From: Rhodococcoides trifolii
GTDB lineage: Bacteria > Actinomycetota > Actinomycetes > Mycobacteriales > Mycobacteriaceae
Assembly: GCF_014635345.1 (NCBI RefSeq)
Contig: NZ_BMCU01000006.1
Coordinates: forward strand, 186,001-250,000
Direction: 5' to 3'
Length of the DNA: 64,000 bases
This document shows positions 43,325 to 58,073 of the stretch, in pieces. The position numbers were made by a program, and so were the translations under genes. The notes under the pieces are model-generated. The model was not told the origin of the DNA and searched no databases. It saw only the letters and a program-made list of their open reading frames with translations. The number at the start of each line of letters is the position of its first letter. The stretch's first letter is position 1.

Positions 43325-43339
43325 ACGTCTCGTATCGCT
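43325..43339. promoter_or_regulatory. TetR-type operator copy (site E)
   Basis: Read on the minus strand, the left part AGCGATACGAG-N-CGT matches the operator in front of the tetR gene (57539-57553); the right arm is degenerate. It lies 22 bases upstream of the FAD hydroxylase start and 88 bases before the divergent substrate-binding-like gene. Confidence 0.5.
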
Positions 43340-43427
43340 GAAGCTAGCATAGGGCGATGCGACGCACATCACAATCACCCAACGAAATTTCTTTCGATCA
43401 CCACTACCCCGAAGAGGTGTGGGTCCT

Positions 43428-44285
43428 GTGACCATCACCCAGTCGGTGTTCGTGGTTCCGGCGCTGCTCGCTGTCGCGCACCGTCAGGGCTACTTCGACA
43501 GCCACGGAGTCGACGTCGCGACGGTGCACACACCCTCGTCGATCTCGCAGCGCACGGACCTCGACGACGGCGTGGTCGAGGTGGCCGTGACGGCGACCGA
43601 CAACCTTCTCGCCTGGAATGCGACCGGTTCCGACGTGGTGTTGATCGGGCAGATCGAGACCACGACCGATCTTGCGCTGACGTGCCGTGCCGGACTGGGG
43701 TCGCCGAAAGACGCGGGCAGAATCCGTCTCGCTGTCGACGCCCCCACCAACGGGTTCGCCATCGTGGCCTACGCGATGCTCGCCGATCCGGCACTGGCGG
43801 CCGGCTACGACGTGGTCGAGATCGGTGGGGTACGTGAGCGTCTGGCTGCGCTCGGAGACGGGTCGGCCGACGTGACTCTGCTGGCACCACCCCTGGATCA
43901 GGCCGCGATGGAGCAAGGGATGTCCGTCGTGCGACGGCTCTCGGACTGGCTGCCGTCGTACCCGGGTCTCGGCCTGGTCACCACACGCCGGTCGTTGAAC
44001 CACTCCCGCGACAAACTGCAGCGATACGTGTCTGCCCTCGTCGAGGCCAACGATTGGATGCGAACCGCGACTGCCACCGACCTCACAGCGGCACTCGCAG
44101 AGTCCGGAATCGGCGGGGCTGCAGCAGAGTCCGTGGCGGCACGAATCCCGTCATCGTTGGCGCCCACCGTCGACGCCTTCCATGTACTCGAGACACTGCG
44201 TCGCGGTACCGGCGCGGTGATCGACGGTGTCCCGTCCGCGGAATCGATGGTGGAGACCGGGTTGGTCGACGACGCTCACCGATAG
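43428..44285 (+). CDS. NMT1/THI5-like substrate-binding-fold protein without signal peptide
   Basis: The protein has 285 residues from a GTG at 43428 (GAAGAGG 10 bases upstream; the GTG at 43419 is too close). It has the periplasmic-binding-protein pattern of SsuA/NMT1: an opening LLAVAHRQGYFDSHGVDVATVHTP, VEVAVTATDNLLAW, then DVVLIGQIETTTDLALTC and a second lobe. The N terminus shows no signal or lipoprotein sequence, and no ABC permease or ATPase is nearby. It may be a cytoplasmic binding or enzyme relative (THI5-like) or lost its leader. It converges on a cupin gene with a terminator hairpin between. Confidence 0.7.
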   Translation: MTITQSVFVVPALLAVAHRQGYFDSHGVDVATVHTPSSISQRTDLDDGVVEVAVTATDNLLAWNATGSDVVLIGQIETTTDLALTCRAGLGSPKDAGRIRLAVDAPTNGFAIVAYAMLADPALAAGYDVVEIGGVRERLAALGDGSADVTLLAPPLDQAAMEQGMSVVRRLSDWLPSYPGLGLVTTRRSLNHSRDKLQRYVSALVEANDWMRTATATDLTAALAESGIGGAAAESVAARIPSSLAPTVDAFHVLETLRRGTGAVIDGVPSAESMVETGLVDDAHR

Positions 44286-44295
44286 GGAACCGCGA

Positions 44296-44331
44296 GCGGG
44301 TGGCAACAGCGTGCGGACTGTCGCCACCCGC
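44296..44331. terminator. Bidirectional terminator hairpin
   Basis: GCGGGTGGC and GCCACCCGC form a perfect 9-base stem, extended by ACAG/CTGT after one mismatch, around an 8-base loop. It lies between the convergent substrate-binding-like and cupin genes. Confidence 0.7.
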
Positions 44332-44337
44332 GTCTCG

Positions 44338-44958
44338 TCATGCGATAGACGAGGCGACCGCGTCAGCGGCAAGCGCAGTCCGCGTGCGAGCGATCTCTTC
44401 CGCTGATTGTGGCTCGGTTCCGATGAGTACGAACAACATTCGAGCAGTGGTCTCGGTGCGATTGGACCAGGCGTGCGAGGTGGCGCGCTGGACGACGACG
44501 TCACCCGCTCGCAACGTCGACTCGTCGCCGTCGAGAATGAGGGTCACTTCTCCGCTCAGCACCACCGCGTAGTCGATCGAGTCGGTGCGGTGGAACCAGA
44601 AGTGCTTACTCTGTGCTCGTTCCTGTCCCGCATCCTTCTCGGCGTGGCCGTCGAGTTCGTCGAAGATGGCATTCTCTGCTTCGGCGGGGTAGACCGCGTC
44701 GGGTGGGAAGTCGACTATGCGCATGATGGTCTCGCCGGTCGCCGGAAACGAGGGAATGGTCGTCTCGGCCGAGGCGGCATCGACGTCCGAGGAGTGGTCG
44801 ACGGGACCGGCAGTCGTCATCCAGGGCACAGTGGCACCGAACCCCGGGATGGTCTCCGATGTCCAGTGGTGCGGGGCATTCGCGTCGGAGAGGACGATCG
44901 AGCGCCCATCGTCGTCGTGTCCGGTCACCACACGACGCACAGGTGGCCGGGCGTTCAC
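44338..44958 (-). CDS. Cupin-domain protein
   Basis: The protein has 206 residues from a GTG at 44958 with GAGGAG 8 bases upstream, overlapping the end of the FAH-fold gene. The cupin barrel is in the C-terminal half: HFWFHRTDSIDYAVVLSGEVTLILDGDESTLRAGDVVVQRATSHAWSNRTETTARMLFVLIG-type sequence, containing D-Y-x-x-V-x-x-G-E and Q-x-x-x-x-H-x-W motifs. The N-terminal half (VVTGHDDDGRSIVLSD...) is a common extension in aromatic-pathway cupins. Metal ligands are partly kept. It may act on the product of the FAH-fold enzyme. Confidence 0.75.
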   Translation of the reverse strand: MNARPPVRRVVTGHDDDGRSIVLSDANAPHHWTSETIPGFGATVPWMTTAGPVDHSSDVDAASAETTIPSFPATGETIMRIVDFPPDAVYPAEAENAIFDELDGHAEKDAGQERAQSKHFWFHRTDSIDYAVVLSGEVTLILDGDESTLRAGDVVVQRATSHAWSNRTETTARMLFVLIGTEPQSAEEIARTRTALAADAVASSIA

Positions 44959-45971
44959 AACGACCACTCCTCGTGGGGGTAGGGGCGAGGGGTGGGCCAC
45001 CACGGCGCTTTCTCGCGCTCGGTCGACACCGGCGTGCGCAGCGTTCCCACGCCTTCGAGTTCGAGTTCGAGGACGTCGCCCGGTTGGAGGAAGCGACCGA
45101 TCTCGACTCCGGCGCCGAATCCCATCGTCCCGGACCCGATGATGTCCCCGGGCTGAAGGCGGTCCGCGATGGACACGTAGGCCAGCAACTCGGCCGGTGT
45201 GTAGACGAAGTTCTCGACCTTGGTGTCCGACACCACGTCTCCGTTGACGCGGACCTGGCCGACGAGGCCCTCGATCGACGCGATCTCGTCCATCGTGGTG
45301 ATCCACGGTCCGATGACGTAACCGAAGTCCTTGCACTTCTGAGGACCCATGCCGATGGCCATCTCGGCGCCTTGGACGTCACGCGCGCTCAGGTCGTTGA
45401 ATATCGTGATCCCGAACAGGTGGTCCAACGAGTTGTCCGGTGTGAGGTCACTGCCGGATCTGCCTACGACATAACCGATTTCGAGTTCCCAGTCCAGCGC
45501 ATCCGTGTAATCCGGGTACGGCAGGACCTGATCGTGGCCGTACGACTTCGCTGTCGTCCCTTTGAAGTACCCGGGGCGCTCGTACAGCGAACGTGCGGGC
45601 TGGGTTTTGGCGACGACGCGATGGAAATTCTGGATGTGGGTTTCGAACGTCAAGCCGTCGCGGATGACGGGCGAGTCGACGGCGGCGCGCCACGACACCT
45701 CGTCGATGGACTGCGACGCATCGTCTCCGGCCTCGAGTGCCTGATGAGCTGCGTCCAGGAAGAGGTCGCCACTGCCGATCGCGGCAGACATGCTCGAGGG
45801 AAAGACGGTGCGCGAGATCGCAGTCGCACGATCCGGCTCTGCTCCTCGGCGGGCGAGTGTCAGTGCGTAGGCGCGGGCGAGGTCGACGACGCGACCAGCC
45901 GCAGTGTCGACAGAAACGAGTCTGAGTTGTTCGCCGTCGGGCGTGGGAACCGCTGTACGTCCCAGTTTCAC
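44955..45971 (-). CDS. Fumarylacetoacetate hydrolase (FAH) family protein
   Basis: The protein has 338 residues from a GTG at 45971 (CAGGAG 5 bases upstream). The FAH core has FHRVVAKTQPARSLYERPGYFKG, metal ligands in DWELEIGYVVGRSG, TIFNDLSARDVQ and GSGTMGFGAGVEIGRFLQPGD. The GSGTMGFG motif differs from the TGTP and TGSPPGNG forms of the other FAH proteins here, which argues for a different substrate. It is divergent from the ornithine cyclodeaminase-like gene, with two operator-like palindromes between. Confidence 0.85.
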   Translation of the reverse strand: MKLGRTAVPTPDGEQLRLVSVDTAAGRVVDLARAYALTLARRGAEPDRATAISRTVFPSSMSAAIGSGDLFLDAAHQALEAGDDASQSIDEVSWRAAVDSPVIRDGLTFETHIQNFHRVVAKTQPARSLYERPGYFKGTTAKSYGHDQVLPYPDYTDALDWELEIGYVVGRSGSDLTPDNSLDHLFGITIFNDLSARDVQGAEMAIGMGPQKCKDFGYVIGPWITTMDEIASIEGLVGQVRVNGDVVSDTKVENFVYTPAELLAYVSIADRLQPGDIIGSGTMGFGAGVEIGRFLQPGDVLELELEGVGTLRTPVSTEREKAPWWPTPRPYPHEEWSL

Positions 45972-46041: not shown

Positions 46042-46063
46042 CTATACGAGTCGTATCGTATAG
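46042..46063. promoter_or_regulatory. TetR-type operator copy (site A)
   Basis: CTATACGA-N6-TCGTATAG is a perfect 8-base inverted repeat. Inside it TATACGAGTCGTATC matches the consensus GATACGAGNCGTATC at 13 of 14 defined bases. It lies 71 bases upstream of the leftward FAH-fold gene. Confidence 0.65.
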
Positions 46064-46141
46064 CTTTTGCGCGTGTCGTCGACCGTTTTTCGACAGCCGG
46101 AACAAGATTTGCGAAAACGGCCCGATCGTCGTCTGGAATAG

Positions 46142-46159
46142 ATACGATACGGATCGTAT
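46142..46159. promoter_or_regulatory. TetR-type operator copy (site B)
   Basis: ATACGAT-N4-ATCGTAT is an inverted repeat related to site A and to the palindrome ahead of the tetR gene. It ends 43 bases before the GTG of the ornithine cyclodeaminase-like gene, so A and B could serve the two divergent promoters separately. Confidence 0.6.
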
Positions 46160-46202
46160 TGAACGGCGGACTTCGCCGGCTCCCCGAAAGGATCCGCATC
46201 CA

Positions 46203-47213
46203 GTGAGTTCAAACAGTCGGCAACCGAGCCGGATGCCCCTCTTCCTCACCGACGACGACGTCGATGCGATGTCGGATTGGGACGAGGCCATCTCCGCGAT
46301 CAGGTCGGCGTACTCGACGAGCGGAGACGACCGGCGCACTCCCGGACGGATCTTCGCGCAGACCGAGCGGGAGTGGATGCGTATCATGCCGTCGGTTCCG
46401 GCCGGTGGGCGCCTGTTCGGCGCGAAGTCGATGGTCGGGTCGTTCGCAGACGGCCTCCACGTCGGTTACCTGATCACGCTGTTCGACAAGGACACAGCCG
46501 AGCTCGCGGCGCTCGTCGACGGCAACCGTGTCACCGGGCTGCGCACGGCAGCGACGACGGCCGTCGGAGCGGCGGCCCTCACTCCCTCCCGTGCGGTGAC
46601 GCTGGGAGTGGTCGGATCGGGCTTCGAGGCGCGCTCGCACGTGGCCGCGTTGTCACACGTGCTCGACATCGCCGAAGTTCTGGTCTACAGCCCGACCACC
46701 GCAAATCGAGAGCGCTTCGCTGCGGACGTGACAACTCTGGTGGGCGTGCCGGCACGGGCGGTCGACACGGCGAGGGACGCCGCCGGGTGCGACGTCGTGC
46801 TGTGCGCCGCGCGGTCGCGGGACGAGACGCCCACCGTGCTGGCGGACTGGGTCGGACCCGACTCCACGGTCCTCTCGATCGGATCCACGACACCGGCCCA
46901 GCGAGAGCTCGACACCGAACTGATCCGACGAGCCTCGATCGTGGTGGTGGACACCGTGGAAGAGGTGGTGCACGGCAGCGGCGACATGCTGCACGCGCGC
47001 GCCGACGGCGTCGACGTCGACAGTCTCGTCGTCCCACTGTCCGACGTGCTGTGCACACAGGTCGAGCCGGACCTGCACCGAGGAATTCGCATCTACAAGT
47101 CGACGGGCTCCGGCCTCCAGGACGTCGTGGTCGCGGAGATGCTCGTCGACCGCGCACGCGCAGAAGGCCGAGGCACCGTCCTGCCTGTCGGCATCGTCAC
47201 GAGTCGAAAGTGA
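46203..47213 (+). CDS. Ornithine cyclodeaminase / mu-crystallin family protein
   Basis: The protein has 336 residues from the GTG at 46203 (AAAGGA about 10 bases upstream). Family marks: LFLTDDDVDAMSDWDEAISAIRSAY, GAKSMV, AALVDGNRVTGLRTAATTAVGAAAL, the NAD motif LGVVGSGFEARSHVAAL and DVVLCAARSRDETPTV. Members are ornithine cyclodeaminase, alanine dehydrogenase and ketimine or imine reductases. It leads a rightward operon with a DapA-like lyase and an ALDH. It may reduce an imine or act on an amino or keto acid (inference). Confidence 0.8.
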   Translation: MSSNSRQPSRMPLFLTDDDVDAMSDWDEAISAIRSAYSTSGDDRRTPGRIFAQTEREWMRIMPSVPAGGRLFGAKSMVGSFADGLHVGYLITLFDKDTAELAALVDGNRVTGLRTAATTAVGAAALTPSRAVTLGVVGSGFEARSHVAALSHVLDIAEVLVYSPTTANRERFAADVTTLVGVPARAVDTARDAAGCDVVLCAARSRDETPTVLADWVGPDSTVLSIGSTTPAQRELDTELIRRASIVVVDTVEEVVHGSGDMLHARADGVDVDSLVVPLSDVLCTQVEPDLHRGIRIYKSTGSGLQDVVVAEMLVDRARAEGRGTVLPVGIVTSRK

Positions 47214-47229
47214 ACTGAGGAGCCACCAC

Positions 47230-48258
47230 ATGCTCGACTACACACCCACCGACGCCCGTTCATGGGCGCGCGGAACCTTCCAAGGAACGATCGCAGTGAC
47301 CCAGCCGTCGTTCTCGGCCGACTTCACGCGCATCGACGAGGCGGCGATCGCCCACGACGTCCTGAAGCTGAAAGACCTCGGCTTCTCCGGCACACTGCTG
47401 GTCGCCGAAGTGAACATCACCCCCGAAGAGAACGCACGCGTCACCGCAGTCGCCCGGGAAGCGGGCGGCCCCGACTTCGCCCTGTTCTTCCATGCCATGT
47501 TCCCCACCCTCGAGCAGAATGTTCACGCGGCCAGACTGGCGGAGGCAGCAGGGGTCGATCGCGCACTCCTTGCGTACCCGTCCTCGTTCTGGCCGACGTC
47601 GTACGACGAGGTCTTCGACTACACGAAGGCCTTCTGCGACCAGACCGGCCTCGCCACCATGCTCTTTCCCTTGCCAGCGTGGGGATTCGAACGAATTCAT
47701 CCCGCCGGGATGAGCGTCGATTTCGTCCGACGAGTGCTCGACGGTGTGCCCAACATCGTGGCCATCAAGTCCGAGCAGGGTTATCCGGGAATTCCCGGCG
47801 TCATGGAGATGTACCACCACTTCCGCGAGGAAGTCGTCATCTCGTGCCCGATCGAAGCCGAGACGATCCCGCTGATGTCCGCGCTGGACTTCCAGTTCTC
47901 CGGCACAAGCAACACCCATTGGATGAGCGACTACTACCCGCGGGCATTCGACCTCGCACGCACGGGCCGATGGGAAGAAGCCATGGAGCTCTACTGGCAG
48001 GTGCACCCGGCGCGGCTGGCGAACAGTGCGGTCTCGGCGACCTCGACACCCGGGACCAGCACCATCAATCGCACGCAATGGAAGTACCAGGAGTGGCTCG
48101 CCGGCTTCCACGGCGGGGCCCTCCGGCCTCCCGCCCAACGGCTGCCCGACCGGTACATGAAGCAGTTGCGTGCTGCTCTCGTGGCGTCCGGGCTTCCCGT
48201 GACCGATTCCCCCGACGAGGACTTTGTGCACGGGCGCGGCGCCGGCGGACACCACTGA
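47230..48258 (+). CDS. Dihydrodipicolinate synthase (DapA/NAL) family aldolase
   Basis: The protein has 342 residues. TIM-barrel Schiff-base aldolase marks: DVLKLKDLGFSGTLLVAEVN, LEQNVHAARLAEAAGVDRALLAYP, and the catalytic Lys in NIVAIKSEQGYPG near residue 180. The usual GTTGE is replaced by VAEVNIT, so it is not DapA itself. Relatives are 2-oxo-acid aldolases, dehydratases and hydratase-aldolases of aromatic pathways. It sits between the ornithine cyclodeaminase-like gene and ALDH; hydratase-aldolase cleavage to an aldehyde for the ALDH is plausible. Confidence 0.8.
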   Translation: MLDYTPTDARSWARGTFQGTIAVTQPSFSADFTRIDEAAIAHDVLKLKDLGFSGTLLVAEVNITPEENARVTAVAREAGGPDFALFFHAMFPTLEQNVHAARLAEAAGVDRALLAYPSSFWPTSYDEVFDYTKAFCDQTGLATMLFPLPAWGFERIHPAGMSVDFVRRVLDGVPNIVAIKSEQGYPGIPGVMEMYHHFREEVVISCPIEAETIPLMSALDFQFSGTSNTHWMSDYYPRAFDLARTGRWEEAMELYWQVHPARLANSAVSATSTPGTSTINRTQWKYQEWLAGFHGGALRPPAQRLPDRYMKQLRAALVASGLPVTDSPDEDFVHGRGAGGHH

Positions 48259-48284: not shown

Positions 48285-49730
48285 ATGACGACGACTACGA
48301 CCATGCGGCGCACCGACCTGTTCATCGGCGGCGAGTGGATCGACACCGCCGACGCCCGGATCGAGGTGATCGATCCTTCCGACGGAACAGTTCTCGACAC
48401 AGTCGCCGACGGCGGCATCGAGGACGCAATCCACGCCGTCGACGCCGCTGCCGACGCGCTGCACTCCTGGTCCGCGACGCCGCCTCGCGACCGTGCCGAG
48501 ATTCTTCGACGCGCGTACGAAGTGATGGCAGAACGCACCGACGCGTTGGCTGAATTGATTTCCTCCGAGAACGGCAAGGCGCTGGCGGACGCCCGTGCGG
48601 AAGTGTCCTATGCAGCCGAGTTCTTCCGGTGGTACTCGGAGGAGGCGGTGCGGAACATCGGTTCGATCTCACTGGCTCCGTCGGGCCGCAACAGGATCAT
48701 GGTCGAACACCGTCCCATCGGGGTCTGTGTCCTGATCACTCCGTGGAACTTCCCCGCGGCCATGGCAACGCGGAAGATCGCTCCCGCCCTCGCGGCAGGA
48801 TGCTCGGTGGTGCTCAAGCCCGCCACCCTGACTCCTCTCACCGCCTACGCCATCGCCGACATCCTGTCCGAAGCCGGTGTTCCCGCCGGTGTGATCAATG
48901 TGATCACCACCAGGAACACCGGCCCAGTGGTCTCGGCGATGCTGGAGGATCCGCGCGTCCGTCTGCTGTCCTTCACCGGCTCCACCGAGGTGGGGCGAAT
49001 CCTCCTCCAGCAGGCGTCCGGGCAGGTGCTCAAGTGCGCCATGGAACTCGGTGGCAACGCGCCGCTGATCGTGCTCGAGGACGCCGACCTCGAGGTCGCG
49101 CTGGACGGAGCCATGCTGGCGAAGATGCGCAACGGCGGGCAGGCGTGCACTGCGGCCAATCGGATTCTCGTTCATCGCTCCCGTCACGACGACTTCGTGG
49201 CGGGACTGGCGTCGCGAATGAGCGCACTCACCGTGGGTTCCGGCGTCGATTTAGCGACCGAGTGCGGGCCCCTCGTCGACGCGAAGAGTGTCGACAAGGT
49301 GCACGCACTCGTCCGGGACGCGATCGGCCGCGGAGCCACCTTGGTCACGGGGGGCGAACTACCCGGCGGTCCAGGGTTCTTCTACCCGCCCACCGTCCTG
49401 ACGAACGTCGACCCCGAGTCGGACATCGTCGCGACGGAGATCTTCGGACCGGTCGCTGCCATCACCACGTTCGACGACGACGACGAGGCGGTCCGCGCCG
49501 CCAACTCGTCCGAATACGGCCTCAGCGCTTACGTGTTCGGCCGAGACCTCTCCCGCGCGCTCGCCGTCGCGGGACGACTGGAAACCGGCATGGTCGCTGT
49601 CAACCGAGGGCTGGTGTCCGACCCGGCCGCCCCGTTCGGCGGAGTGAAACAGAGCGGTCTCGGGCGAGAAGGAGCACACGAGGGGATGTTGGAATACACC
49701 GAGACCCAGTACACCGCGGTGGACTGGTGA
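48285..49730 (+). CDS. Aldehyde dehydrogenase (succinate-semialdehyde dehydrogenase-like)
   Basis: The protein has 481 residues from the ATG at 48285. ALDH features: LITPWNFPAAMATRKIAPALAAGCSVVLKPA, LSFTGSTEVGR, catalytic Glu in AMELGGNAP, catalytic Cys288 in NGGQACTAANR, and EIFGPVA. The GQACTAANR and MELGGNAP forms are typical of succinate-semialdehyde and glutarate-semialdehyde dehydrogenases. It follows the DapA-like lyase, which could supply its aldehyde. Confidence 0.9.
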   Translation: MTTTTTMRRTDLFIGGEWIDTADARIEVIDPSDGTVLDTVADGGIEDAIHAVDAAADALHSWSATPPRDRAEILRRAYEVMAERTDALAELISSENGKALADARAEVSYAAEFFRWYSEEAVRNIGSISLAPSGRNRIMVEHRPIGVCVLITPWNFPAAMATRKIAPALAAGCSVVLKPATLTPLTAYAIADILSEAGVPAGVINVITTRNTGPVVSAMLEDPRVRLLSFTGSTEVGRILLQQASGQVLKCAMELGGNAPLIVLEDADLEVALDGAMLAKMRNGGQACTAANRILVHRSRHDDFVAGLASRMSALTVGSGVDLATECGPLVDAKSVDKVHALVRDAIGRGATLVTGGELPGGPGFFYPPTVLTNVDPESDIVATEIFGPVAAITTFDDDDEAVRAANSSEYGLSAYVFGRDLSRALAVAGRLETGMVAVNRGLVSDPAAPFGGVKQSGLGREGAHEGMLEYTETQYTAVDW

Positions 49731-51715
49731 CCGACATGAACGCACCGGCAGAGACCCTGTCCGAGAGTGGTTCCTGGACACCCCCATCGTCCGGCGCCCG
49801 CCACCTCGCGGCATTCACCGACCACCTTCTGCGATCCGGCTCGGTGGATCGTGAGGTGACTGCCGACTACTCGTCACTCTGGCGGTGGTCGATCGCCCAA
49901 CCTGACGCGTTCTGGCGAGCGTTCGCGTCGTTCTCGGGAGTCGATGTAGAGACTCCACCCGACGTGGCCGTGGTCCCGCACGCGATGTCCGGTGCCGACT
50001 GGTTCCCCGGCACCACCGTCAACTACACCGAGCAGGTCTTCCGCGGCCCGCCGCGCCCGGGAAACGCCGTGCTCTCTGTCGATGAGGACGGAACCACCGT
50101 CGGGACGTCCTGGCAGGAATTGAGGCGACAGGTCTCGTCGGTCGCCGAATTCCTCCGTCGGTCCGGAGTCGGTCACGGCGACCGGGTGGCCGCTGTGCTT
50201 CCCAACCGCCTCGAGGCAGTCGTGGGGCTGCTCGCCGCAGCGTCCGTCGGCGCGGTCTGGTCGGTCGTCGCGCCCGAGTTCGGTTCCGAGGCCATCGTGT
50301 CGAGGCTGCGACAGCTCGATCCCGTGGTTCTTCTCGTGACCACCGGATACGACTACGGGGGGGTGCGACGGGATCGGGAGAGTGTCGTCCTCGAGGTGGT
50401 CGGGGCGATTCCGAGTCTGCGCGAGATCGTGTGGGTGGGTCCGATGCCGTCGGCGGACGACGCGAGGGGCCGAGAGTGGGACGAGATCGTCTCCGAGGAC
50501 CCTCCGTGGCATACCGAAAGTGTTCCGTTCGATCATCCTCTCTGGGTCCTGTTCTCCTCGGGCACGACGGGAGTTCCCAAGGGCATCGTGCACGGACACG
50601 GGGGTGTTCTGCTCGAACACCTCAAGACCTGGACTCTGCACGCGGACCTCGACCCGGGGGACCGGTTGTTCGTCGTGGGATCGACGAGTTGGGTCGTGTG
50701 GAACACACTGGTGTCCGGGTTGCTGCGCGGCGCGACGATCGTTCTCCTGGACGGTAATCCGGCGTATCCGACGCTCGATCGCGTGTGGCAGGTGGCTGCC
50801 GAGCACCGTGTCTCCGTGCTCGGTCTCGGTGCCGGCTACGTCCACGCGAGCATGCATGCCGGCCTACCCATCGCGGACACGAACGATCTCACCGCGCTAC
50901 GGATGGTGCAGGTCACGGGTTCGCCGTTGTCGACCGACGCCTACACCTGGCTCAGGCGTGAGCTCGGCGACTTGTGGCTGGCCTCGGTCAGCGGGGGAAC
51001 GGACGTGGCCGGCATCTTCCTCGGCGGCGCGCCCACCGAGCCCGTCCGCCCGGGACGACTGCAACCTCCCGCGCTCGGTGTGGCCGCGGCGGGATGGGAT
51101 GCCGACGGCAGAGCAGTCGTCGACGAACCTGCCGAGTTGGTCATCACCGTGCCCATGCCCTCCATGCCGCTACGCTTCTGGAACGACGAGGACGGTTCGC
51201 GCTTTCACGAGTCGTATTTCGCCACGTATCCGGGTGTCTGGAGGCACGGCGACCTCGTCGAGTTCGCCGCCGACGGTTCGTCCGTCATCGTCGGGCGTTC
51301 GGATTCCACGCTGAATCGCAACGGAATCCGGTTGGGCCCCGCCGACCTCTACCGCGTGGTCGAGGCGCTGCCGGAGGTGCGTGAGGCGCTCGTGGTCGGT
51401 ATCGAGGACGCCGGTGACTACTACATGCCGATGTTCATCGACGTTGCCGACGGTGTGGACGACGGCGCAGCGGTCGATGCCGTTCGTGCTGCGATACGCG
51501 CGTCGTTGTCGCCGCGGTACGTACCCGACGACATCGTTCCGGTACGCACCATCCCACACACGCGGACCGGCAAGAAGCTCGAGGTACCGGTCAAACGAGT
51601 ACTACAGGGCGTGCCCGTCGACGAGGTCGTCGACTCCGGGTCCGTCGACGACGCCGCAGTACTCGGCGAGATTCGCAGCGAGATTTCCCGCCGTCGTCCC
51701 GGTTGGTTGTCATGA
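49727..51715 (+). CDS. Acetoacetyl-CoA synthetase-like acyl-CoA ligase
   Basis: The protein has 662 residues from a GTG overlapping the ALDH stop (an ATG at 49736 is also possible). ANL adenylation motifs: VLFSSGTTGVPKGIVHGHGG, GGTDVAGIF, WRHGDLVEF, RNGIRLGPADLYRV and the C-terminal Lys loop TRTGKKLEVPVKRVLQG, which is diagnostic of acetoacetate-CoA ligase. The N-terminal WRWSIAQPDAFWRAFASFSGV and WFPGTTVNYTEQVF also fit. It activates a keto or branched short-chain acid with ATP and CoA, probably a cleavage product of the pathway. Confidence 0.88.
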   Translation: MTDMNAPAETLSESGSWTPPSSGARHLAAFTDHLLRSGSVDREVTADYSSLWRWSIAQPDAFWRAFASFSGVDVETPPDVAVVPHAMSGADWFPGTTVNYTEQVFRGPPRPGNAVLSVDEDGTTVGTSWQELRRQVSSVAEFLRRSGVGHGDRVAAVLPNRLEAVVGLLAAASVGAVWSVVAPEFGSEAIVSRLRQLDPVVLLVTTGYDYGGVRRDRESVVLEVVGAIPSLREIVWVGPMPSADDARGREWDEIVSEDPPWHTESVPFDHPLWVLFSSGTTGVPKGIVHGHGGVLLEHLKTWTLHADLDPGDRLFVVGSTSWVVWNTLVSGLLRGATIVLLDGNPAYPTLDRVWQVAAEHRVSVLGLGAGYVHASMHAGLPIADTNDLTALRMVQVTGSPLSTDAYTWLRRELGDLWLASVSGGTDVAGIFLGGAPTEPVRPGRLQPPALGVAAAGWDADGRAVVDEPAELVITVPMPSMPLRFWNDEDGSRFHESYFATYPGVWRHGDLVEFAADGSSVIVGRSDSTLNRNGIRLGPADLYRVVEALPEVREALVVGIEDAGDYYMPMFIDVADGVDDGAAVDAVRAAIRASLSPRYVPDDIVPVRTIPHTRTGKKLEVPVKRVLQGVPVDEVVDSGSVDDAAVLGEIRSEISRRRPGWLS

Positions 51716-52155
51716 GTGTCTGTGCGGCGGTGCGAGACATGCTGGCTCGCGATCACAGCGCCACCGGCAACGGGATGACGGTCCTGTCGGCGGAGAACGG
51801 CAGTGCATCGGTGTCGGTGGTGGTGGACCGCTCGTGGGTCAACGGGCACGGACTCGCGCACGGCGGCCTCGTGTTCAGCCTGGCCGACACAGCCTTCGCC
51901 TGTGCCGCGAACAGCCGGTCGCCGGGCACTGTGACCGCCGGCGCGGAGATCGTCTACTACTCGCCGTCTCGCGAGGGTGACACCCTGGTGGCCGACGCCA
52001 CGGTGCGCCACCTGGCCGGCCGACACAGCCTCGTCGACGTCACCGTACGGCGAGACTCGGTGGTCGTGGCCGAATACCGCGGGCGAGGCGCCGTCGCGCG
52101 CCAGCCAGCACAACAGACCGAGCTCGGCGCAGCCGCCGACGACGAGAGAAAGTGA
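51712..52155 (+). CDS. PaaI-type hotdog thioesterase
   Basis: The protein has 147 residues from an ATG overlapping the synthetase stop. The PaaI signature NGHGLAHGGLVFSLADTAFACAANS gives the catalytic Asp and the HGG turn. PaaI thioesterases release CoA from blocked phenylacetyl-CoA pathway intermediates. Behind an acyl-CoA ligase it probably acts as a CoA-recycling safety valve. Confidence 0.85.
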   Translation: MSVCAAVRDMLARDHSATGNGMTVLSAENGSASVSVVVDRSWVNGHGLAHGGLVFSLADTAFACAANSRSPGTVTAGAEIVYYSPSREGDTLVADATVRHLAGRHSLVDVTVRRDSVVVAEYRGRGAVARQPAQQTELGAAADDERK

Positions 52156-52159
52156 CGCC

Positions 52160-53110
52160 ATGACCCGATTCGCTCTGGGGACGTTCGATGCAGGGGACGG
52201 CCCGTTTCCCGGCATCGTGATCGACGAGAACATTCACGACATCACCGCGTTCACCGACTATGCATCGACCGACGAGGTGTTGCAGGACTGGCCGAGGGCG
52301 TTCGATCGTCTCGCCGCCGAGGCCGACGCTCCGTCGACCCCGCCGACAGCTGCGTCCGCTGTGCGGACGTTGCCGCCGGTGGCACGAGCCGGCCAGATAT
52401 ACGGGGCCGGCGCCAACTATCGCGAGCATGTCATCCAGATGTCCGTCGCGCACAAACTCGGAACCGAAGGACTCTCCGAGGCTGCCCTCGCCGAGGAGGC
52501 CGCTCGCGACATCGACGAGAGAAAGGCGAACGGGGAGCCGTACGTGTGGACGGGCGTGCCGTCCGCGATCAGTGGCGCCTACGACGACGTCGTCCTGCCC
52601 GCCGCCTGGGACGACCACGACTGGGAGCTGGAACTGGGTGTTGTCATCGGGACACGCGCACACCACGTCTCGGTGGACGACGCCCTGGACCACGTCGCCG
52701 GCTACACCATCTGTAACGACCTGACCACGCGCAGCCTGGTGCCGCGCAAGGACATCGCCATGATGGGTACGGACTGGATGCGCGCCAAGAACTTCCCGAC
52801 GTTCTACCCGACGGGCCCGTGGCTGGTTCCGGCACAGTTCGTCGACAACCCGCTCGATCTCGGGATTCGTCTGTCGCTCAACGGAAAGCTGATGCAGGAC
52901 AGCAACACCGGCGACATGGTGTTCGGACCGGCCGAACTGATCTCCTACATCTCGAGGTTCGTCGCGCTCGAACCGGGTGACATGGTCATCACGGGATCGC
53001 CGCCGGGAAACGGATCCCACTGGGGTCGGTTCCTGCGTCCGGGCGATGTCATGGAATGCGAGATCGACGGCTTGGGAACGCAACGAACGGAATGCGTACG
53101 GGGAGACTGA
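52160..53110 (+). CDS. Fumarylacetoacetate hydrolase (FAH) family protein
   Basis: The protein has 316 residues from the ATG at 52160, 5 bases after the thioesterase. Core: QIYGAGANYREHV, metal ligands in HDWELELGVVIGTRA, TICNDLTTRSLVPRKD, and TGSPPGNGSHWGRFL. The TGSPPGNG form and an inserted segment after NYREH are shared with the FAH-fold protein at 58250, so the two form a subgroup. It ends the operon and is followed by a large terminator. Confidence 0.85.
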   Translation: MTRFALGTFDAGDGPFPGIVIDENIHDITAFTDYASTDEVLQDWPRAFDRLAAEADAPSTPPTAASAVRTLPPVARAGQIYGAGANYREHVIQMSVAHKLGTEGLSEAALAEEAARDIDERKANGEPYVWTGVPSAISGAYDDVVLPAAWDDHDWELELGVVIGTRAHHVSVDDALDHVAGYTICNDLTTRSLVPRKDIAMMGTDWMRAKNFPTFYPTGPWLVPAQFVDNPLDLGIRLSLNGKLMQDSNTGDMVFGPAELISYISRFVALEPGDMVITGSPPGNGSHWGRFLRPGDVMECEIDGLGTQRTECVRGD

Positions 53111-53114: not shown

Positions 53115-53169
53115 CTGAGCGACGGTGGCCCTCCTCCGCAAATGTTGGCGGAGGGCCACCGTCGCTCAG
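53115..53169. terminator. Large bidirectional terminator hairpin
   Basis: Arms of 22 paired bases (CTGAGCGACGGTGGCCCTCC... and its complement) with a 3-base slip near the apex and an AAATGTTG loop lie between convergent operons. The right arm covers the stop codon of the leftward reductase gene. Confidence 0.85.
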
Positions 53170-54404
53170 TGGTGTCGGAGAATCGACGCGGCGCGCTTGA
53201 GGTCGAAATCGACGGACGCGAGGGTGGTCCTGTCGATGGCGCCCGGGACGGCGAGAAGAGCGCGTGCGGAGCTGTGTGCTGCGGGGTGATTGATCGACTC
53301 GACGCAGACGAGTGTGTCCTGCTGGAAGCGAAGTATCGAGAATTTGCCTCTGCCGATGTCGCCGATCACAGTCACAGGACCCTCGGTGCGAGCGATGCCC
53401 GCGATCTGAATCTTCGTGGCGCCCTGGTGGCTCCAGAACCACGGCACGCGGTCGTACTCGGTGGGATGTCCAGTCAGGGTCTTGGCCAAGGTCCGTGCGT
53501 GGTCGACTGCGTTCTGGACCGACTCGAGTCGCGTGAGAAGTCCCGTGTGACGAGACGGGAATCGTGCGCAGTCACCGATCGCCCAGACGTGTGGGTCGGT
53601 GGTGCGGAAATACCCGTCCACGACGACGCCATCGTCTGTGCCCAGACCGCACTGCGCGGCAAGGACATCGTCGGGCAGCACCCCGACTCCCACGATCACC
53701 AGATCTGCCGGGTGTCGGGTTCCGTCGTCGGTGACCACGGTGTGCACCCTGCCGTCGGCGCCGAGAATTTCGGTGACGACGCGACCGAACTCGAATCGGA
53801 CGCCGCGAGCCTCGTGCGCACCACGGACGTGTGCCGAGATCTGCGGGCACACTGCTCGCCCCATGGCGCGGGACCCGAGTTCGACGACAGTGACGTCGAG
53901 ACCGCGATCGAGCGCTGCAGCGGCGAGCTCGAGTCCGATGAATCCGGCCCCGATGACGACGACCCGCCTTGCGTGCTCCAGTTCTGCCCGTACGGTCGCA
54001 GCGTCGCCCGCATCTCGGAGCCGACACACACCGGCGAGATCGACTCCGGGGATGTCGAGTCGGCGTGGCCGGGCGCCGGTCGCGAGCACCAGCGCCGAAT
54101 AGTGCACAACCTGGCCACCGAACAGGGTGACCGTCCGTGCGGGGCGATCGATCGAGACCACCGGGTCACCTTCGACCAGTTCGACATCTCGGTCGGCGTA
54201 GAAGCTGCGTGCGCGCAGCGGTAGGTACTCCGGATCTGCGGTCTTCCCGAGGTAGTCCTTGGACAGCGGTGGACGTTGGTACGGCAGTCCGACCGCGGTG
54301 TCGACGAGGGTGATCCGACCCGAGAATCCCTCGGCGCGAAGTGAATCCGCCAGTTGGACGCCGGCGTGACCGGCTCCGGTGACGATCACGTGGTTCGTCG
54401 TCAT
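53166..54404 (-). CDS. FAD-dependent ferredoxin reductase (P450 electron transfer)
   Basis: The protein has 412 residues from the ATG at 54404. Motifs: VIVTGAGHAGVQLADSLRAEGFSG, YQRPPLSKDYL, ATGARPRRLDIPGV, VVVIGAGFIGLELAAAALDRG, and VWAIGDCARFP. The C-terminal domain ends like putidaredoxin reductase. It overlaps the [2Fe-2S] ferredoxin gene by 4 bases, and that is 10 bases from the P450 gene, so the three encode a complete class I P450 system. Gene order is P450, ferredoxin, reductase. Confidence 0.9.
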   Translation of the reverse strand: MTTNHVIVTGAGHAGVQLADSLRAEGFSGRITLVDTAVGLPYQRPPLSKDYLGKTADPEYLPLRARSFYADRDVELVEGDPVVSIDRPARTVTLFGGQVVHYSALVLATGARPRRLDIPGVDLAGVCRLRDAGDAATVRAELEHARRVVVIGAGFIGLELAAAALDRGLDVTVVELGSRAMGRAVCPQISAHVRGAHEARGVRFEFGRVVTEILGADGRVHTVVTDDGTRHPADLVIVGVGVLPDDVLAAQCGLGTDDGVVVDGYFRTTDPHVWAIGDCARFPSRHTGLLTRLESVQNAVDHARTLAKTLTGHPTEYDRVPWFWSHQGATKIQIAGIARTEGPVTVIGDIGRGKFSILRFQQDTLVCVESINHPAAHSSARALLAVPGAIDRTTLASVDFDLKRAASILRHH

Positions 54405-54727
54405 ACCTGAGTGTCCGGCAGGTCGACGACGATCTCTTCGAGGCGTCCTCCGACCACGATCTGGCATCCCAGGCGCGATCGTGCCGGATCGCGTTCGGTG
54501 GCGGTGCAGTCGAGCATCTCGTCCTCGTCCTCGCCGACCGGGGGCAGATGCTCGAGGTAGTCGTCGTGTACGAGAACGTGGCAGGTCGCGCACATCGCCT
54601 GACCGCCGCACTCGCCGACGATGCCGTCGACTCCGCCCGACACCGCGGCTCTCATGATCGACGTGCCATCCGCGACGTCGAGGGTGTCGGTACGGCCGTC
54701 GGCATGATCGAATCGAATAGTTGCCAT
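54401..54727 (-). CDS. [2Fe-2S] adrenodoxin/putidaredoxin-type ferredoxin
   Basis: The protein has 108 residues. The four cluster cysteines are in GECGGQAMCATCHV (C-x5-C-x2-C) and LGCQIV, with HDDYLEHLPPVGEDEDEMLD between, as in putidaredoxin. It carries electrons from the FAD reductase to the adjacent P450. It differs in type from the single-cluster bacterial ferredoxin beside the other P450 at 15042. Confidence 0.92.
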   Translation of the reverse strand: MATIRFDHADGRTDTLDVADGTSIMRAAVSGGVDGIVGECGGQAMCATCHVLVHDDYLEHLPPVGEDEDEMLDCTATERDPARSRLGCQIVVGGRLEEIVVDLPDTQV

Positions 54728-54737
54728 GATGTCGCTC

Positions 54738-55934
54738 TCAGTCGTCCCAGGTGATGGGCAGGGTGGTCAGTCCCCGGAAGACCCAGCCGTTCCACTGTGT
54801 CTCCCGGCTGTGATCCACTCGGAGGGTGGGGAATGCGTCGAACAGTTTCGGAACGGCGATCTGTCCGATCGACGATTTTGCGGCCCAGTGACCCGCGCAG
54901 AGGTGAACGCCGCTACCGAACGCGAGATGTGGCAGTTTCGGGCGGTGGATGTCGAAGAGTTCGGGGTGGTCCGCCACATGGCGAGGATCTCGGTTGGCAG
55001 CGGCCACCACCACCCCCAGAGGTGCGCCTGCGGGCAGCGCGATGCCGCCGAGAACGGTCTCGCACGTGGTCTCACGCGGGTACATGCCGATCGGAGACAG
55101 CCATCGCGCGGTCTCGTCGAACACAGCGGTCCACGACGACGGGTCGGTCTGGACGTGGCGGCGCTGATCGGGATGGTTGTCGAGCGCCCACACCATGTTC
55201 GTGACCATGTGTTGTGGCTCGTTCATCCCGCCCGCGATGGTCAGTTTGACGTTCGCGGCCGCGGTGCGGTGGGGGAGGCCGCTCGCTACCAGCGCCGAGG
55301 TGATCGAGTGATCCGGGTGCTGCGCGTAGTGCGGAATCAGGTCGGCGAGAAGTTCGTCGATCTCGGTTCGGGCCGTGTCGGCGGCGTCCCAGATCCGTGC
55401 GTCGTCGAGGAGATTTCCGGTGCCGGCGATCAGCGCGTGCGACCACCGACTCATGGTGGTGGTGTCGACTCCGGGTAGACCGAGCATGTCGATCAGATTC
55501 TGTGATGCCAAGGGGGCGGCGAAGTCTCGGTTCAGATCTGCCTTGTCCGGGCCGGCGTCCGAGAGCGCGGCCAGGAAGCGGTCGGCGTTGCGATCGAAGA
55601 TCGGGGCCCATACCTGCGTGACGGATCTGGGCCGTAGTGTCGGGTTGATGGCCTGACGTTCGACAGCGTGTTCGGGGTCGTCCTTGCGCAGCATCGGATT
55701 CTCTCCGAGTGCCCGGATCATCGTTGCTCCACTGCCGCTGACGCGCGCGGAGAAGACGGTTTGGTCGAGCTCGACGGAGTGACACTCCGGATACCCGGTG
55801 ATCAGATACTTGTTCACCGCGGGAACCCACGTAACGGGCGACTCGGCGCGCAGTTTCTCGTACGTGTCGTAGGGATCCATCATCATGACGTGTGGATCGA
55901 CCCAGTTCGCCGTGGGCGCGGTCAAGTCCGCCAT
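54738..55934 (-). CDS. Cytochrome P450 (class I)
   Basis: The protein has 398 residues from the ATG at 55934 with AGGAGG 5-6 bases upstream. The heme loop is FGSGVHLCAGHWAA near residue 345, and the K-helix has ETAR. The I-helix reads TIAGGMNEPQHM: the conserved acid-Thr pair is replaced by Met-Asn, followed by Glu-Pro. Bacterial P450s with this atypical pattern include O-demethylating and terpene-oxidising enzymes, so aryl ether demethylation is possible in this methoxy-aromatic setting (inference). It is divergent from a LysR gene. Confidence 0.88.
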   Translation of the reverse strand: MADLTAPTANWVDPHVMMMDPYDTYEKLRAESPVTWVPAVNKYLITGYPECHSVELDQTVFSARVSGSGATMIRALGENPMLRKDDPEHAVERQAINPTLRPRSVTQVWAPIFDRNADRFLAALSDAGPDKADLNRDFAAPLASQNLIDMLGLPGVDTTTMSRWSHALIAGTGNLLDDARIWDAADTARTEIDELLADLIPHYAQHPDHSITSALVASGLPHRTAAANVKLTIAGGMNEPQHMVTNMVWALDNHPDQRRHVQTDPSSWTAVFDETARWLSPIGMYPRETTCETVLGGIALPAGAPLGVVVAAANRDPRHVADHPELFDIHRPKLPHLAFGSGVHLCAGHWAAKSSIGQIAVPKLFDAFPTLRVDHSRETQWNGWVFRGLTTLPITWDD

Positions 55935-56050
55935 GACGGCCTCCTGGTAGTTGTGTGGATCACATTGTGCTGTTAGTCGATTCCACATCACATGTTAATT
56001 CACGTAAAGTGCGCATTAGCGTGCTCAATCCTCTATCGAATCGAAGAAGC

Positions 56051-56986
56051 ATGGCCTCGTTCACACTGCGGCAGCTCGAGCTGTTCTGCGCGATCCCCGA
56101 TCATCCGACTCTGGGCGCTGCCGCGGCGGCGCTCCACATGTCCGAATCCGGCTTGTCGCATGCGATCACGGAACTGGAAAGAGTTGTGGGGGAGCAACTC
56201 TGCGTGCGTCGCAAAGCCCGAGGGGTGCAACTCACGCCCGCTGGGCAGTTCTTCGCAGTCCACGCACGGGCTCTGCTCGCGGATGCAGACGAGCTAGTGA
56301 GCCGTCTGGCCGCCGAACGTGGAGAGCTCGTGGGGCCGTTGTCGGTCGGGTGTTACGACGGCATCTCGACCACCATTCTGCCGGCCGTGCTCGACGGGTT
56401 CGCCTCGGCGCATCCTCGTGTCGACGTCCGCGTGCACACAGGACACGACGACGAGCTTCTGCCCATGCTGAATGCCGGTCGACTCGATGTGGCGATCACG
56501 TACGACATGTCGTTGACGGAGGAGTTCCGCAGCAGACCGATATACGACACCGAGGTGTTGGTCGTTCTGTCGGAACGACATCCGTTGGCCGACGCGGAGG
56601 CAGTGGACCTGTCGGAGTTGGCAGCGGATCCCTTCGTCCTGCTGGACACGACGCCCAGCGCAGCCAACACGAGACGCGTCTTCGAGGAGAGTGGGATCGT
56701 CCCGCGCACGGTGCTCGCGGTGCCCAATCTGGAACTCGTGCGGGTACTGGTCGCACGAGGTCTCGGCTACAGCCTGTTGATGTGGCGGCCCAACTACTCG
56801 ATGACGACCCTCGAGGGTGGCTCCGTGGTGATGCTCCCGCTGGCTCCGCGTACCGGATTGTCGTCCGTCGTCGGAGTGTGGCCGAAGCATTCCACCCTCA
56901 GTCGGCGGGCAGACGCGCTTCTCACTCGTCTGCGGTGCGACCTGGGCTCAGTGCGGAGCGAATCCCGTCAGCACGGCGTCGAGTAG
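56051..56986 (+). CDS. LysR-family transcriptional regulator
   Basis: The protein has 311 residues from the ATG at 56051 (GAAGAAG upstream). HTH: LRQLELFCAIPDHPTLGAAAAALHMSESGLSHAITELERVVGEQL, then RKARGVQLTPAG. The effector domain follows from about residue 90. It is divergent from the P450-ferredoxin-reductase operon with a 116-base gap rich in dyads (ATCACAT, ACATCACATGT), so it probably activates that operon. The 3' end overlaps the convergent tetR gene by 39 bases. Confidence 0.87.
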   Translation: MASFTLRQLELFCAIPDHPTLGAAAAALHMSESGLSHAITELERVVGEQLCVRRKARGVQLTPAGQFFAVHARALLADADELVSRLAAERGELVGPLSVGCYDGISTTILPAVLDGFASAHPRVDVRVHTGHDDELLPMLNAGRLDVAITYDMSLTEEFRSRPIYDTEVLVVLSERHPLADAEAVDLSELAADPFVLLDTTPSAANTRRVFEESGIVPRTVLAVPNLELVRVLVARGLGYSLLMWRPNYSMTTLEGGSVVMLPLAPRTGLSSVVGVWPKHSTLSRRADALLTRLRCDLGSVRSESRQHGVE

Positions 56987-57538
56987 CGCCTCGGTCGAAG
57001 CGCGGTCGAGTTCGCCGGTCTGGAAGAGCAGCCGGAAGTAGATCGGTGCATACAGGGTCTCGGCGATGAGGTCGGGGTCCAACCCGGGGGTGAGATCTCC
57101 TTCCAACACGGCCCGTTCGATCAAGGACTGTGCCGCGGCGACCCGCCCCTTCCAGAACCGTTCCTTGAATTCTGCGAGAGTCGCAGCGTCGTACTGGCAT
57201 TCGGCGATCAGCTGAGCGATGAGGCGGCCCTCGGGGCCGCTGTACACACGGGCCAGCGAGGCGAGGTGCTCGCGCAACGCGGCCAGGGCAGGACCGTCCT
57301 GTCTCACCGGGGTCTGCACGACGTGGTTGTCGATGAAGGAGTCGATCACGATTGCGGCCTTGTTCGGCCACCAGCGATAGATCGTCATTTTGCTGACGCC
57401 GGCCTGACGGGCGATGCTCTCGATGGACAACTTCTGCAGAGTTACTGCAGGGGTGCCTCCCCGGCCGTCGAGCAGTTCCATCGTGGCCTGTAGAACTGCC
57501 TTTCGGCTCGCTTCACTTCGTACCGCCATGCCGGACAT
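56948..57538 (-). CDS. TetR-family transcriptional regulator
   Basis: The protein has 196 residues from the ATG at 57538 (a second ATG is at 57529; neither has a clear ribosome site, so a leaderless transcript is possible). N-terminal HTH: SRKAVLQATMELLDGRGG... then LSIESIARQAGVSKMTIYRWWPNKAAIVIDSF. The C-terminal ligand domain is ~140 residues and unspecific. A perfect palindrome GATACG-GCT-CGTATC abuts the start codon, pointing to autorepression, and related sites occur in front of four other transcription units nearby. It is the best candidate for control of the 40-58 kb catabolic genes. Confidence 0.87.
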   Translation of the reverse strand: MSGMAVRSEASRKAVLQATMELLDGRGGTPAVTLQKLSIESIARQAGVSKMTIYRWWPNKAAIVIDSFIDNHVVQTPVRQDGPALAALREHLASLARVYSGPEGRLIAQLIAECQYDAATLAEFKERFWKGRVAAAQSLIERAVLEGDLTPGLDPDLIAETLYAPIYFRLLFQTGELDRASTEALLDAVLTGFAPH

Positions 57539-57553
57539 GATACGGCTCGTATC
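57539..57553. promoter_or_regulatory. TetR operator (site C), autoregulatory
   Basis: GATACGGCTCGTATC is a perfect 6-base inverted repeat around 3 bases, directly upstream of the tetR start codon. It defines the consensus GATACGAGNCGTATC (minus strand) used to recognise sites A, B, D and E. Confidence 0.75.
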
Positions 57554-57601
57554 GCTCCGCTCGGTGCACGCTGGCGACATGTCGGGCTGCCGTCGAGCAT
57601 G

Positions 57602-57955
57602 TCACGGACGCGTGTCGTCAGCTTCCCGCAGCGTCGACGTCGGAACGGCGTTCGCAATCGGACGGTTCTGCTTTGTCGTCGGGTCTACGACTCCAGCAGG
57701 GACGTACGGAGCGGGCAGAGTCAAGAAGGCCACAGCGCATCCGGCGGTGAGCGCTGCGCAGACCAGCAGGGTCGCGGTGTATCCCCCGGTCGCGTCGTAG
57801 GAAGCGCCGATCGCGAGGGGCGCGATACCCGCAGCCACCACGAAACCCGCGTACATCCAAGAACAAGCGCGGGCGTATCCGCCCAGTGCGAAGGCCCGGT
57901 TCGCGGACCAATCGTCACCTTGGCACTGGGCGGACTGACCGGCAAATAGGTCGGC
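57602..57955 (-). pseudogene. C-terminal remnant of an MFS transporter
   Basis: About 117 codons are open but lack a plausible full-length start; a stop lies just upstream of 57955. The conceptual protein matches only the last two membrane helices of an MFS protein: RAFALGGYARACSWMYAGFV, VAAGIAPLAIGASYDATGGY, and LLVCAALTAGCAVAFLTLPAPY, followed by a polar tail. The first ten helices are absent. An internal ATG at 57856 could express an 84-residue peptide, but a functional carrier is impossible. Confidence 0.65.
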
Positions 57956-58058
57956 TCCACCTCAGCGCGGCTTGGCCAGACCGTGGCGTATTTCGACCTA
58001 AACGCCTGTGACGGTGCCGATTCCATCACCAGGCCGTCTCGGAATTGGACGCCCCAAT

Positions 58059-58073
58059 GCGATACGAGCCGTC
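58059..58073. promoter_or_regulatory. TetR-type operator copy (site D)
   Basis: GCGATACGAGCCGT is identical over 14 bases to the minus strand of the tetR operator (57539 region); the outer right arm (ATC) is lost. It lies about 180 bases upstream of the FAH-fold gene at 58250 and may control the 58-61.7 kb operon. Confidence 0.5.

Follow-up and report, generated by a model that had tools for sequence, protein, structure and literature searches.

The systems closest to the locus examined here are TetR-family regulators that place two dimers on one operator and bacterial gene clusters for flavonoid breakdown. DarR of Rhodococcus/Mycobacterium has been described as binding with two dimers to overlapping pseudo-palindromes that include one weak half-site, with base contacts made by Lys44 and Gly45 (PMC10636190). 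CprB was reported to occupy a 22-bp site as two dimers, one on each side of the DNA, a mode compared by its authors to that of QacR (PMC4150764). The isoflavone (ifc) cluster of Variovorax, with homologs also in Bradyrhizobium, and the naringenin (fde) cluster of Herbaspirillum each combine a FAD hydroxylase, a VOC (glyoxalase-like) ring-cleavage enzyme, and a cupin in one induced cluster (PMC11069340). Here, we analyzed a 64,000-nucleotide stretch of the Rhodococcoides trifolii contig NZ_BMCU01000006.1 (positions 186,001 to 250,000; hereafter, the window), in which five related palindromic sites (A to E; Table 1) lie ahead of a TetR-family gene (tetR) and of putative catabolic genes for aromatic compounds.

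Taken together, the sequence comparisons make it highly probable that this TetR acts as a repressor at all five sites, including the one at its own gene, and controls their transcription units jointly. An earlier note on this DNA had placed one palindrome ahead of five promoters; all five sites were present within 3 bases of where that note had put them, and all lie between genes, intergenic DNA making up 8.2% of 40,809-61,674 in our gene list. The operator in its full form proved to be a composite, in which the 15-bp palindrome GATACG-N3-CGTATC occurs twice with a shift of 5 bp (half a helix turn); the single palindrome of the earlier note is present but represents only one of two units. Both units are good at site C, one is better than the other at B, D, and E, and A is a single perfect unit. 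The suggestion that D and E may be weak because of a degraded arm did not hold for D, which has the third best matrix score and pairs at 7 of 9 positions in the 18-20-bp frame, whereas E (5 of 9 pairs) is the least symmetric of the five. Site A, taken earlier as the perfect copy, received the lowest of the five scores from the relatives' matrix described below.

The 5-bp spacing was observed in 13 of 23 TetR-bearing loci, chosen for having the motif near TetR: a 22-kb part of the window and 12 further loci. With ≤2 mismatches, GATACGNNNCGTATC occurred in 54 copies, and the close pairs (≤40 bp) lay exactly 5 bp apart in 15 of 15 cases, which suggests a dimer-of-dimers mode. With ≤3 mismatches, 29 of 35 pairs kept this spacing, against a mean of 0.75 in 20 shuffles of single bases within 200-base blocks; L063 had no 15-bp unit at this setting. 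With ≤4 mismatches, 72 pairs at 5 bp compared with 21.7 of the 91.7 pairs in shuffles, indicating that the signal at this loose setting comes partly from self-overlap of the pattern. The partial TetR matches L043 and L044 were left out of locus comparisons. Two overlapping palindromes at a fixed offset suggest a dimer of dimers of the QacR/CprB/DarR kind, and by likeness to CprB and DarR this is the likely binding mode of the window TetR. The DarR site quoted in PMC10636190, TAGATACTCCGGAGTATCTA, also has GATAC/GTATC arms; DarR differs in being a c-di-AMP sensor with known operators at cspA, darR, and Ms5347. CprB and QacR share the two dimers per operator proposed here; in contrast, they are gamma-butyrolactone-type and drug regulators, and the window TetR fell far short of the ScbR/CprB receptor group (ScbR model, 26.4 bits against a cut-off of 150).

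Specificity of the operator was assessed with a symmetric matrix built from 18 sites in seven relative regions, with the window sequence left out. On the 64 kb, exactly the five sites took ranks 1 to 5 (C, 30.1; B, 28.4; D, 26.8; E, 20.2; A, 17.9), followed by a sixth place at 11.1, and this ranking supports the reading that separate units belong to one regulon. The best score in 200 shuffles averaged 13.3 and reached 24.0 at most (shuffles for the matrix tests, the 15-mer and 18-bp window counts, and the sigma-70 scan preserved dinucleotides). In 300 further shuffles, at least one site scoring ≥17.8 appeared in 17, two in one, and more in none, against five observed; ≥20.2 was reached in 5 (one site each), against four observed, and ≥26.7 in none, against three observed. 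A de novo count of all 6-base half-sites with gaps of 0-10 in the 320 bp upstream of 10 TetR orthologs, with the window excluded and no pattern supplied, placed GATACG-N3-CGTATC joint first (8 of 10 regions), while 15 shuffles of single-base composition reached ≤5. On the 5.29-Mb genome, a profile of the same 18 sites (R1; 150 of 1,569 first-look candidates scored) gave seven matches at E≤10, all in the cluster: C, B, and D on both strands and E on one. On the window alone, the ten best R1 rows were the five sites on both strands (A, 10.1 bits), and the next place had 6.8 bits. In G060 and G977, two genomes that supplied some of the training sites, R1 gave 13 matches. The TetR regions fetched account for ten of them (all 4 in G060 and 6 of the 9 in G977); of the others, one lies about 10 kb outside a TetR region and two are on other contigs.

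The 15-mer by itself is far less telling. In the window, GATACGAGNCGTATC matched 14 times with ≤3 mismatches when palindromes were scored on both strands (shuffle mean, 6.8; 3 of 100 shuffles reached 14), with 0 mismatches at A (57539-57553), 1 at B (46043-46057), 2 in each of two overlapping copies at C (46141-46155 and 46146-46160), 2 at D (43322-43336), and 3 at E (58061-58075). Genome-wide, it matched 41 times with ≤2 mismatches, 34 of these (30 places) outside the cluster, compared with 3 for a reversed control pattern. Given this weak enrichment and the 34 outside matches, the 15-mer was rejected as a genome-wide signature. The remark that no copy was noticed inside genes holds at ≤2 mismatches, where the window has no further copy, but four copies with 3 mismatches, the level of site E, lie in open frames at 1973, 39420, 41261, and 61085. 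The symmetric 18-bp form ATACGANNCGNNTCGTAT was found exactly only at B and C in 5,289,197 bases. With ≤2 mismatches it occupied nine genome places, four being B, C, D, and A; reading the 140-base flanks of the remaining five by eye, we took one as ribosomal RNA and four as coding. With ≤3 mismatches there were 68 genome places, six of them in the window, including all five sites. Across 36 same-genus genomes, which lack such a TetR at E≤1e-20 except for a 35% one in G020, the 18-bp form with ≤1 mismatch occurred at 12 places in 8 genomes, one of them exact, against two exact copies within 118 bp here.

The regulator is placed in the TetR/AcrR family by its N-terminal helix-turn-helix, its length within the usual range of about 190-210 residues, its PDB relative 2fq4 (E 6.1e-32), its helix alignment, and the palindrome at its own promoter (57539-57553). 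Its start was taken at 57529, and an in-frame ATG at 57538 directly abuts site A. TetRs of this group are rare: at E≤1e-20, any match occurred in 9 of 61 genomes, with strong matches only in the own genome and G060, and no second member was found in the own genome at this threshold. In wider samples that include the own genome, it was found in 2 of 397 genomes of the order (E≤1e-40), 2 of 396 of the phylum, and 2 of 394 of the class (both E≤1e-35). A contig scan of genomes gave six TetR loci, one of them close, and a plasmid collection gave 31 TetR records. The relatives, whose support is largely independent of the window, are 33-73% identical and come from Actinomycetota and Pseudomonadota; those added include Micromonospora globispora (L039; 65%), a Rhodococcus koreensis R85 plasmid (L066; 73%), the Corynebacterium occultum plasmid pCOCCU (L067; 54%), Paraburkholderia hospita (46%), and Bradyrhizobium plasmids (42%). 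Among 24 sequences, the recognition helix reads K-M/A/T-T-I/V-Y-R where the motif is present, and KQTIYR, KATIYK, or ETSIYR where it is absent or variant. G060 (L045-L047; 61-64% to the window TetR) and G977 (L070-L072; 51-53%) each contain two TetR copies 14-16 kb apart, every one with a motif copy upstream and catabolic genes around it.

Conservation of the motif with this TetR was observed across genera, in line with the link to the local regulator drawn in the earlier note: orthologs in other genera carry this motif close to their own gene and before several of the same catabolic genes. The fetched relative regions hold homologs of many window genes, and the orthologous TetRs of R. koreensis, C. 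occultum, and M. globispora (54-73%) share motif and homologous catabolic genes with the window while differing in gene order and number of sites. In Micromonospora the motif stands upstream of FAH1 (FAH, fumarylacetoacetate hydrolase fold), the mhpA homolog, OCD (ornithine cyclodeaminase/mu-crystallin family), and an unnamed frame; in R. koreensis upstream of OCD, FAH1, and the mhpA homolog, with a weaker copy beside tetR; and in Bradyrhizobium between FAH1 and tetR. With ≤3 mismatches, a site precedes FAH1 in 6 of 8 relative regions (L039, L066, L068, L069, L084, and G977), the mhpA homolog in L039, L066, and L067, and OCD in L039 and L066. The Bradyrhizobium plasmid L084 (44% TetR, same genes) scored 29.4 upstream of FAH1. 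Site D shares at least 25 identical bases with its R. koreensis counterpart (CGATACGAGACGTCTAGTACAGCAA), although the hydroxylases are only 64% identical, and 20 of 24 bases of site E agree with a Micromonospora site at 14215. Twelve distant TetR loci (about 30-42%) included strong sites close upstream in L040 (25.2), L041 (23.4), L037 (23.0), and L063 (20.6), and far from the gene in L042 (23.4) and L073 (27.6). Conversely, five plasmid loci with a VOC homolog and no such TetR in the stretch had no promoter-placed copy; their top scores were 16.7 in L081 (inside coding sequence), 7.2 in L082, 13.6 in L083 (between genes, ahead of neither), 8.9 in L085, and 4.4 in L086. These loci represent 5 of the 26 VOC records besides R. 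koreensis and C. occultum, their VOC homologs are 60-67% identical (one 49-55%), and the Nonomuraea record L086 contains a 34% TetR elsewhere. The motif thus tracks TetR rather than the enzymes, as far as these sequence comparisons reach, which again favors one regulon.

Several observations weigh against this interpretation. Taken singly, the score of A was reached in 17 of 300 shuffles and that of E in 5 of 300; A was absent from the genome-wide R1 matches among the 150 of 1,569 candidates scored; and E is the poor palindrome already mentioned. The 18 training sites were selected with a pattern taken from B and C, so the matrix test is not fully blind, which leaves some circularity in the high ranks of B and C; the ranks of A, D, and E and the de novo half-site count are freer of this circularity. 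Among the relatives, FAH1 lacks a site directly upstream in G060 and L067, where it comes after other same-direction genes; the mhpA homologs in G977 and OCD in both L067 and L084 likewise lack one, and one of the two TetRs in L069 has no site in front. At the distant loci L034 (12.9), L035 (14.9), and L036 (11.3), only weak variants were found, and L031, L032, and L033 showed no such motif.

Ownership of the sites by another regulator, either a different TetR-type protein or the neighboring LysR, with tetR merely a target, seems very unlikely to us. The lysR gene (56051-56986) overlaps the end of tetR, and a site in the tetR promoter would also be compatible with outside control; nevertheless, the motif accompanies this TetR in seven relative regions and L084 and stands close before the TetRs of L040, L041, L037, and L063, whereas it is missing from the promoters of the five enzyme loci without a nearby TetR, and the own genome offers no second TetR of the group at E≤1e-20. 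LysR-type sites, moreover, usually read T-N11-A. A core promoter element or chance as the source of the shared sequence is extremely unlikely. The weak enrichment of the 15-mer at 3 mismatches and its 34 further genome matches at 2 mismatches would fit such an origin; the relatives-only profile returning nothing else in 5.29 Mb among the 150 of 1,569 candidates scored, the contrast between the near copies of the 18-bp form in same-genus genomes and the two exact copies here, and the cross-phylum conservation with TetR do not. This explanation was rejected on the results of the relatives-only matrix, in the window and in shuffles, and of R1 on the whole genome.

How the protein would act at its sites leaves more room for alternatives. 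It is improbable, though less so than the two explanations above, that TetR partly activates at some sites (E or B) or that its effect is reversed from one promoter to another. The distances of 169 bp (E) and 71 bp (B) from the start codons are not in themselves core-promoter placements, and a consensus scan found no sigma-70-like promoter in 43.2-46.3 kb. However, A and D lie 5 and 13 bp from the start codons in their 20-bp frames, where a bound protein would block RNA polymerase, and catabolic TetR proteins are mostly repressors. A considerably stronger competitor, with an appreciable if minor chance of being right, is that one dimer occupies each site, centered on the 18-20-bp frame of ATACGANNCGNNTCGTAT, with the second 15-bp frame being a by-product of a repeat-like half-site. 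Site D fits best in the longer frame (7 of 9 pairs, against 4 of 7 in the 15-bp frame), 4 of the 12 positions of a perfect 15-bp unit automatically support a 5-bp shift by our hand calculation, and the 5-bp pairs in the shuffles at ≤4 mismatches point the same way, even if far fewer than the 72 observed. Against it stand the 15 cases with both 15-bp units at ≤2 mismatches, where self-overlap would yield a partner for only about 0.4% of units (hand calculation, equal bases), and the known TetR proteins that bind as a dimer of dimers.

With an autoregulated repressor as the preferred interpretation, TetR would repress its own gene, the MhpA-like hydroxylase/extradiol unit, and perhaps also the divergent NMT1-like gene, together with the FAH1-cupin unit, the unit OCD-DapA-aldehyde dehydrogenase (ALDH)-acetoacetate-CoA ligase (AACS)-FAH2, and the FAH3-extradiol-O-demethylase operon. 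We infer that binding would act in the direction of repression, by covering the promoter, and that a full site probably holds two TetR dimers on opposite DNA faces, site A being a one-dimer site. A compound of the pathway would serve as the inducer, with a plant-type phenolic or its product as the most likely candidate, and would free the repressor so that all units come on together. Not all of the DNA from 40.8 to 61.7 kb falls under the predicted regulon: in the window, neither the matrix nor R1 found a site before the P450-ferredoxin-reductase unit or lysR, and both were left out. This part of the span (53166-56986, with the P450-ferredoxin-reductase unit at 53.2-55.9 kb divergent from lysR) might be under LysR control.

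Table 1. Regulator, operator sites, and neighboring genes in the window (positions of the 64,000-nucleotide stretch)
Feature	Coordinates	Strand	Sequence or assignment	Context
tetR	56948..57529	-	193 aa, start MAVRSE at 57529; recognition helix region GVSKMTIYRWWPNK	
Site A	57539-57553; best 20-bp frame 57535-57554		lone perfect 15-bp unit GATACGGCTCGTATC	9 bp upstream of tetR start
Site B	46043-46062		composite operator TATACGAGTCGTATCGTATA	71 bp upstream of FAH1 (FAH1-cupin unit)
Site C	46141-46160		composite operator GATACGATACGGATCGTATT; 1 mismatch in each 15-bp unit	42 bp upstream of OCD operon
Site D	43317-43336		TGTACTAGACGTCTCGTATC	13 bp upstream of MhpA-like hydroxylase start; 91 bp upstream of divergent NMT1-like gene
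Site E	58061-58080		GATACGAGCCGTCCAGTACC	169 bp upstream of FAH3
VOC-fold extradiol-type dioxygenase	40809..41747	-	Pfam Glyoxalase; PDB 3b59 (E 3.5e-65)	close behind hydroxylase, same direction
MhpA-like FAD aromatic hydroxylase	41771..43303	-	NCBIfam NF004829 above cut-off; Pfam FAD_binding_3	site D
NMT1-like substrate-binding protein	43428..44285	+	Pfam NMT1	divergent from site D
Cupin protein	44338..44958	-	Pfam Cupin_2	second gene of FAH1 unit; start by eye
FAH1, fumarylacetoacetate hydrolase fold	44955..45971	-	Pfam FAA_hydrolase	
OCD, ornithine cyclodeaminase/mu-crystallin family	46203..47213	+	Pfam; PDB relatives	
Distant DHDPS-type aldolase (DapA-like)	47230..48258	+	Pfam DHDPS (2.6e-6)	
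Aldehyde dehydrogenase, SSADH-like	48285..49730	+	Pfam, NCBIfam	start by eye
AACS, acetoacetate-CoA ligase-like	49736..51715	+	NCBIfam TIGR01217 above cut-off	start by eye
FAH2, fumarylacetoacetate hydrolase fold	51977..53110	+		provisional start
FAH3, fumarylacetoacetate hydrolase fold	58250..59299	+		first gene, site E operon
Extradiol dioxygenase, HpaD/C23O-like	59310..60239	+	below HpaD/C23O cut-offs	
GcvT-fold O-demethylase-like (DesA/LigM-like)	60319..61674	+	below DesA/LigM cut-offs	

The genes listed in Table 1 look like a set for aromatic ring hydroxylation and meta-cleavage, and the FAH proteins together with the acetoacetate-CoA ligase suggest acetoacetate as a likely product. The units may handle one substrate family. 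As for the name of a substrate, PDB comparisons of DapA, VOC, OCD, and FAH1 gave only generic relatives and NCBIfam gave no pathway name, and nothing usable on this gene combination was found among the papers listed by literature searches. The hydroxylase, VOC, and cupin combination, likened by family names only, recalls ifc and fde, although fde differs in responding to the activator FdeR (PMC10799723); a flavonoid link of the window cluster is only a lead. Term searches found no TetR-family protein, ornithine cyclodeaminase, dihydrodipicolinate, or fumarylacetoacetate in the ifc paper (PMC11069340), and neither TetR nor fumarylacetoacetate in passages of the R85 genome paper (PMC10986565). 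In an open-access library, 24 papers contain one of five 10-11-letter strings from the operator, but judging by their titles none deals with a TetR operator, and no report of this operator was found there with those strings.

Some features of the locus and its relatives hint at its history. The site E operon (58250-61674) has a GC content of 56-60% (65-71% at third codon positions), compared with 62-68% GC for the other listed genes, which suggests a separate origin, and it still carries the operator. Between tetR and site E, the minus strand at 57600-57900 retains what is left of a membrane transporter's C-terminus (judged MFS-like by eye). In C. occultum, an MFS transporter gene (L067, 20990-22390) lies beside this tetR, with a motif copy upstream at 22449; arrival of the next operon may therefore have cost the window its transporter. 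On the Bradyrhizobium plasmids L084 and L068, TetR, FAH, cupin, OCD, DapA, and aldehyde dehydrogenase are grouped with insertion sequence elements, and L084 additionally has a VOC and a Rieske protein, recalling FdeC/FdeD. All 10 plasmid records with a FAH1 homolog (E≤1e-60) were among the best 20 of the 31 TetR rows; seven of these ten are from Bradyrhizobium, most with Glycine max as the source. Elsewhere in the window, the FAD gene at 39182-40414, which has no operator, has a 54% homolog at L042 (11369-12547) beside a distant TetR, and ARAGORN called a 97-base tRNA-Ala (cgc) on the minus strand at 24899-24995 within the open frame 24084-25619, probably a false call.

More tentatively, and with considerable doubt, the TetR could belong to a cross-phylum group of catabolic regulators, defined by the composite operator and the K-[MAT]-T-[IV]-Y-R helix. 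This group would have passed between Actinomycetota and Pseudomonadota, in part on plasmids of soybean Bradyrhizobium, along with core genes for FAH, cupin, OCD, DapA, and aldehyde dehydrogenase, and would sense (iso)flavonoid-like phenolics of plants. Further operons, of which the lower-GC FAH3-extradiol-O-demethylase operon would be an example, might join by carrying the operator along. The kind of control proposed is ordinary, but the regulon itself is new: five scattered transcription units become one predicted regulon with a precise operator. Operator and helix together provide a sequence tag by which this control can be looked for in further bacteria of soil and roots, where it could give clues to the inducer and to a plant-phenolic biosensor.

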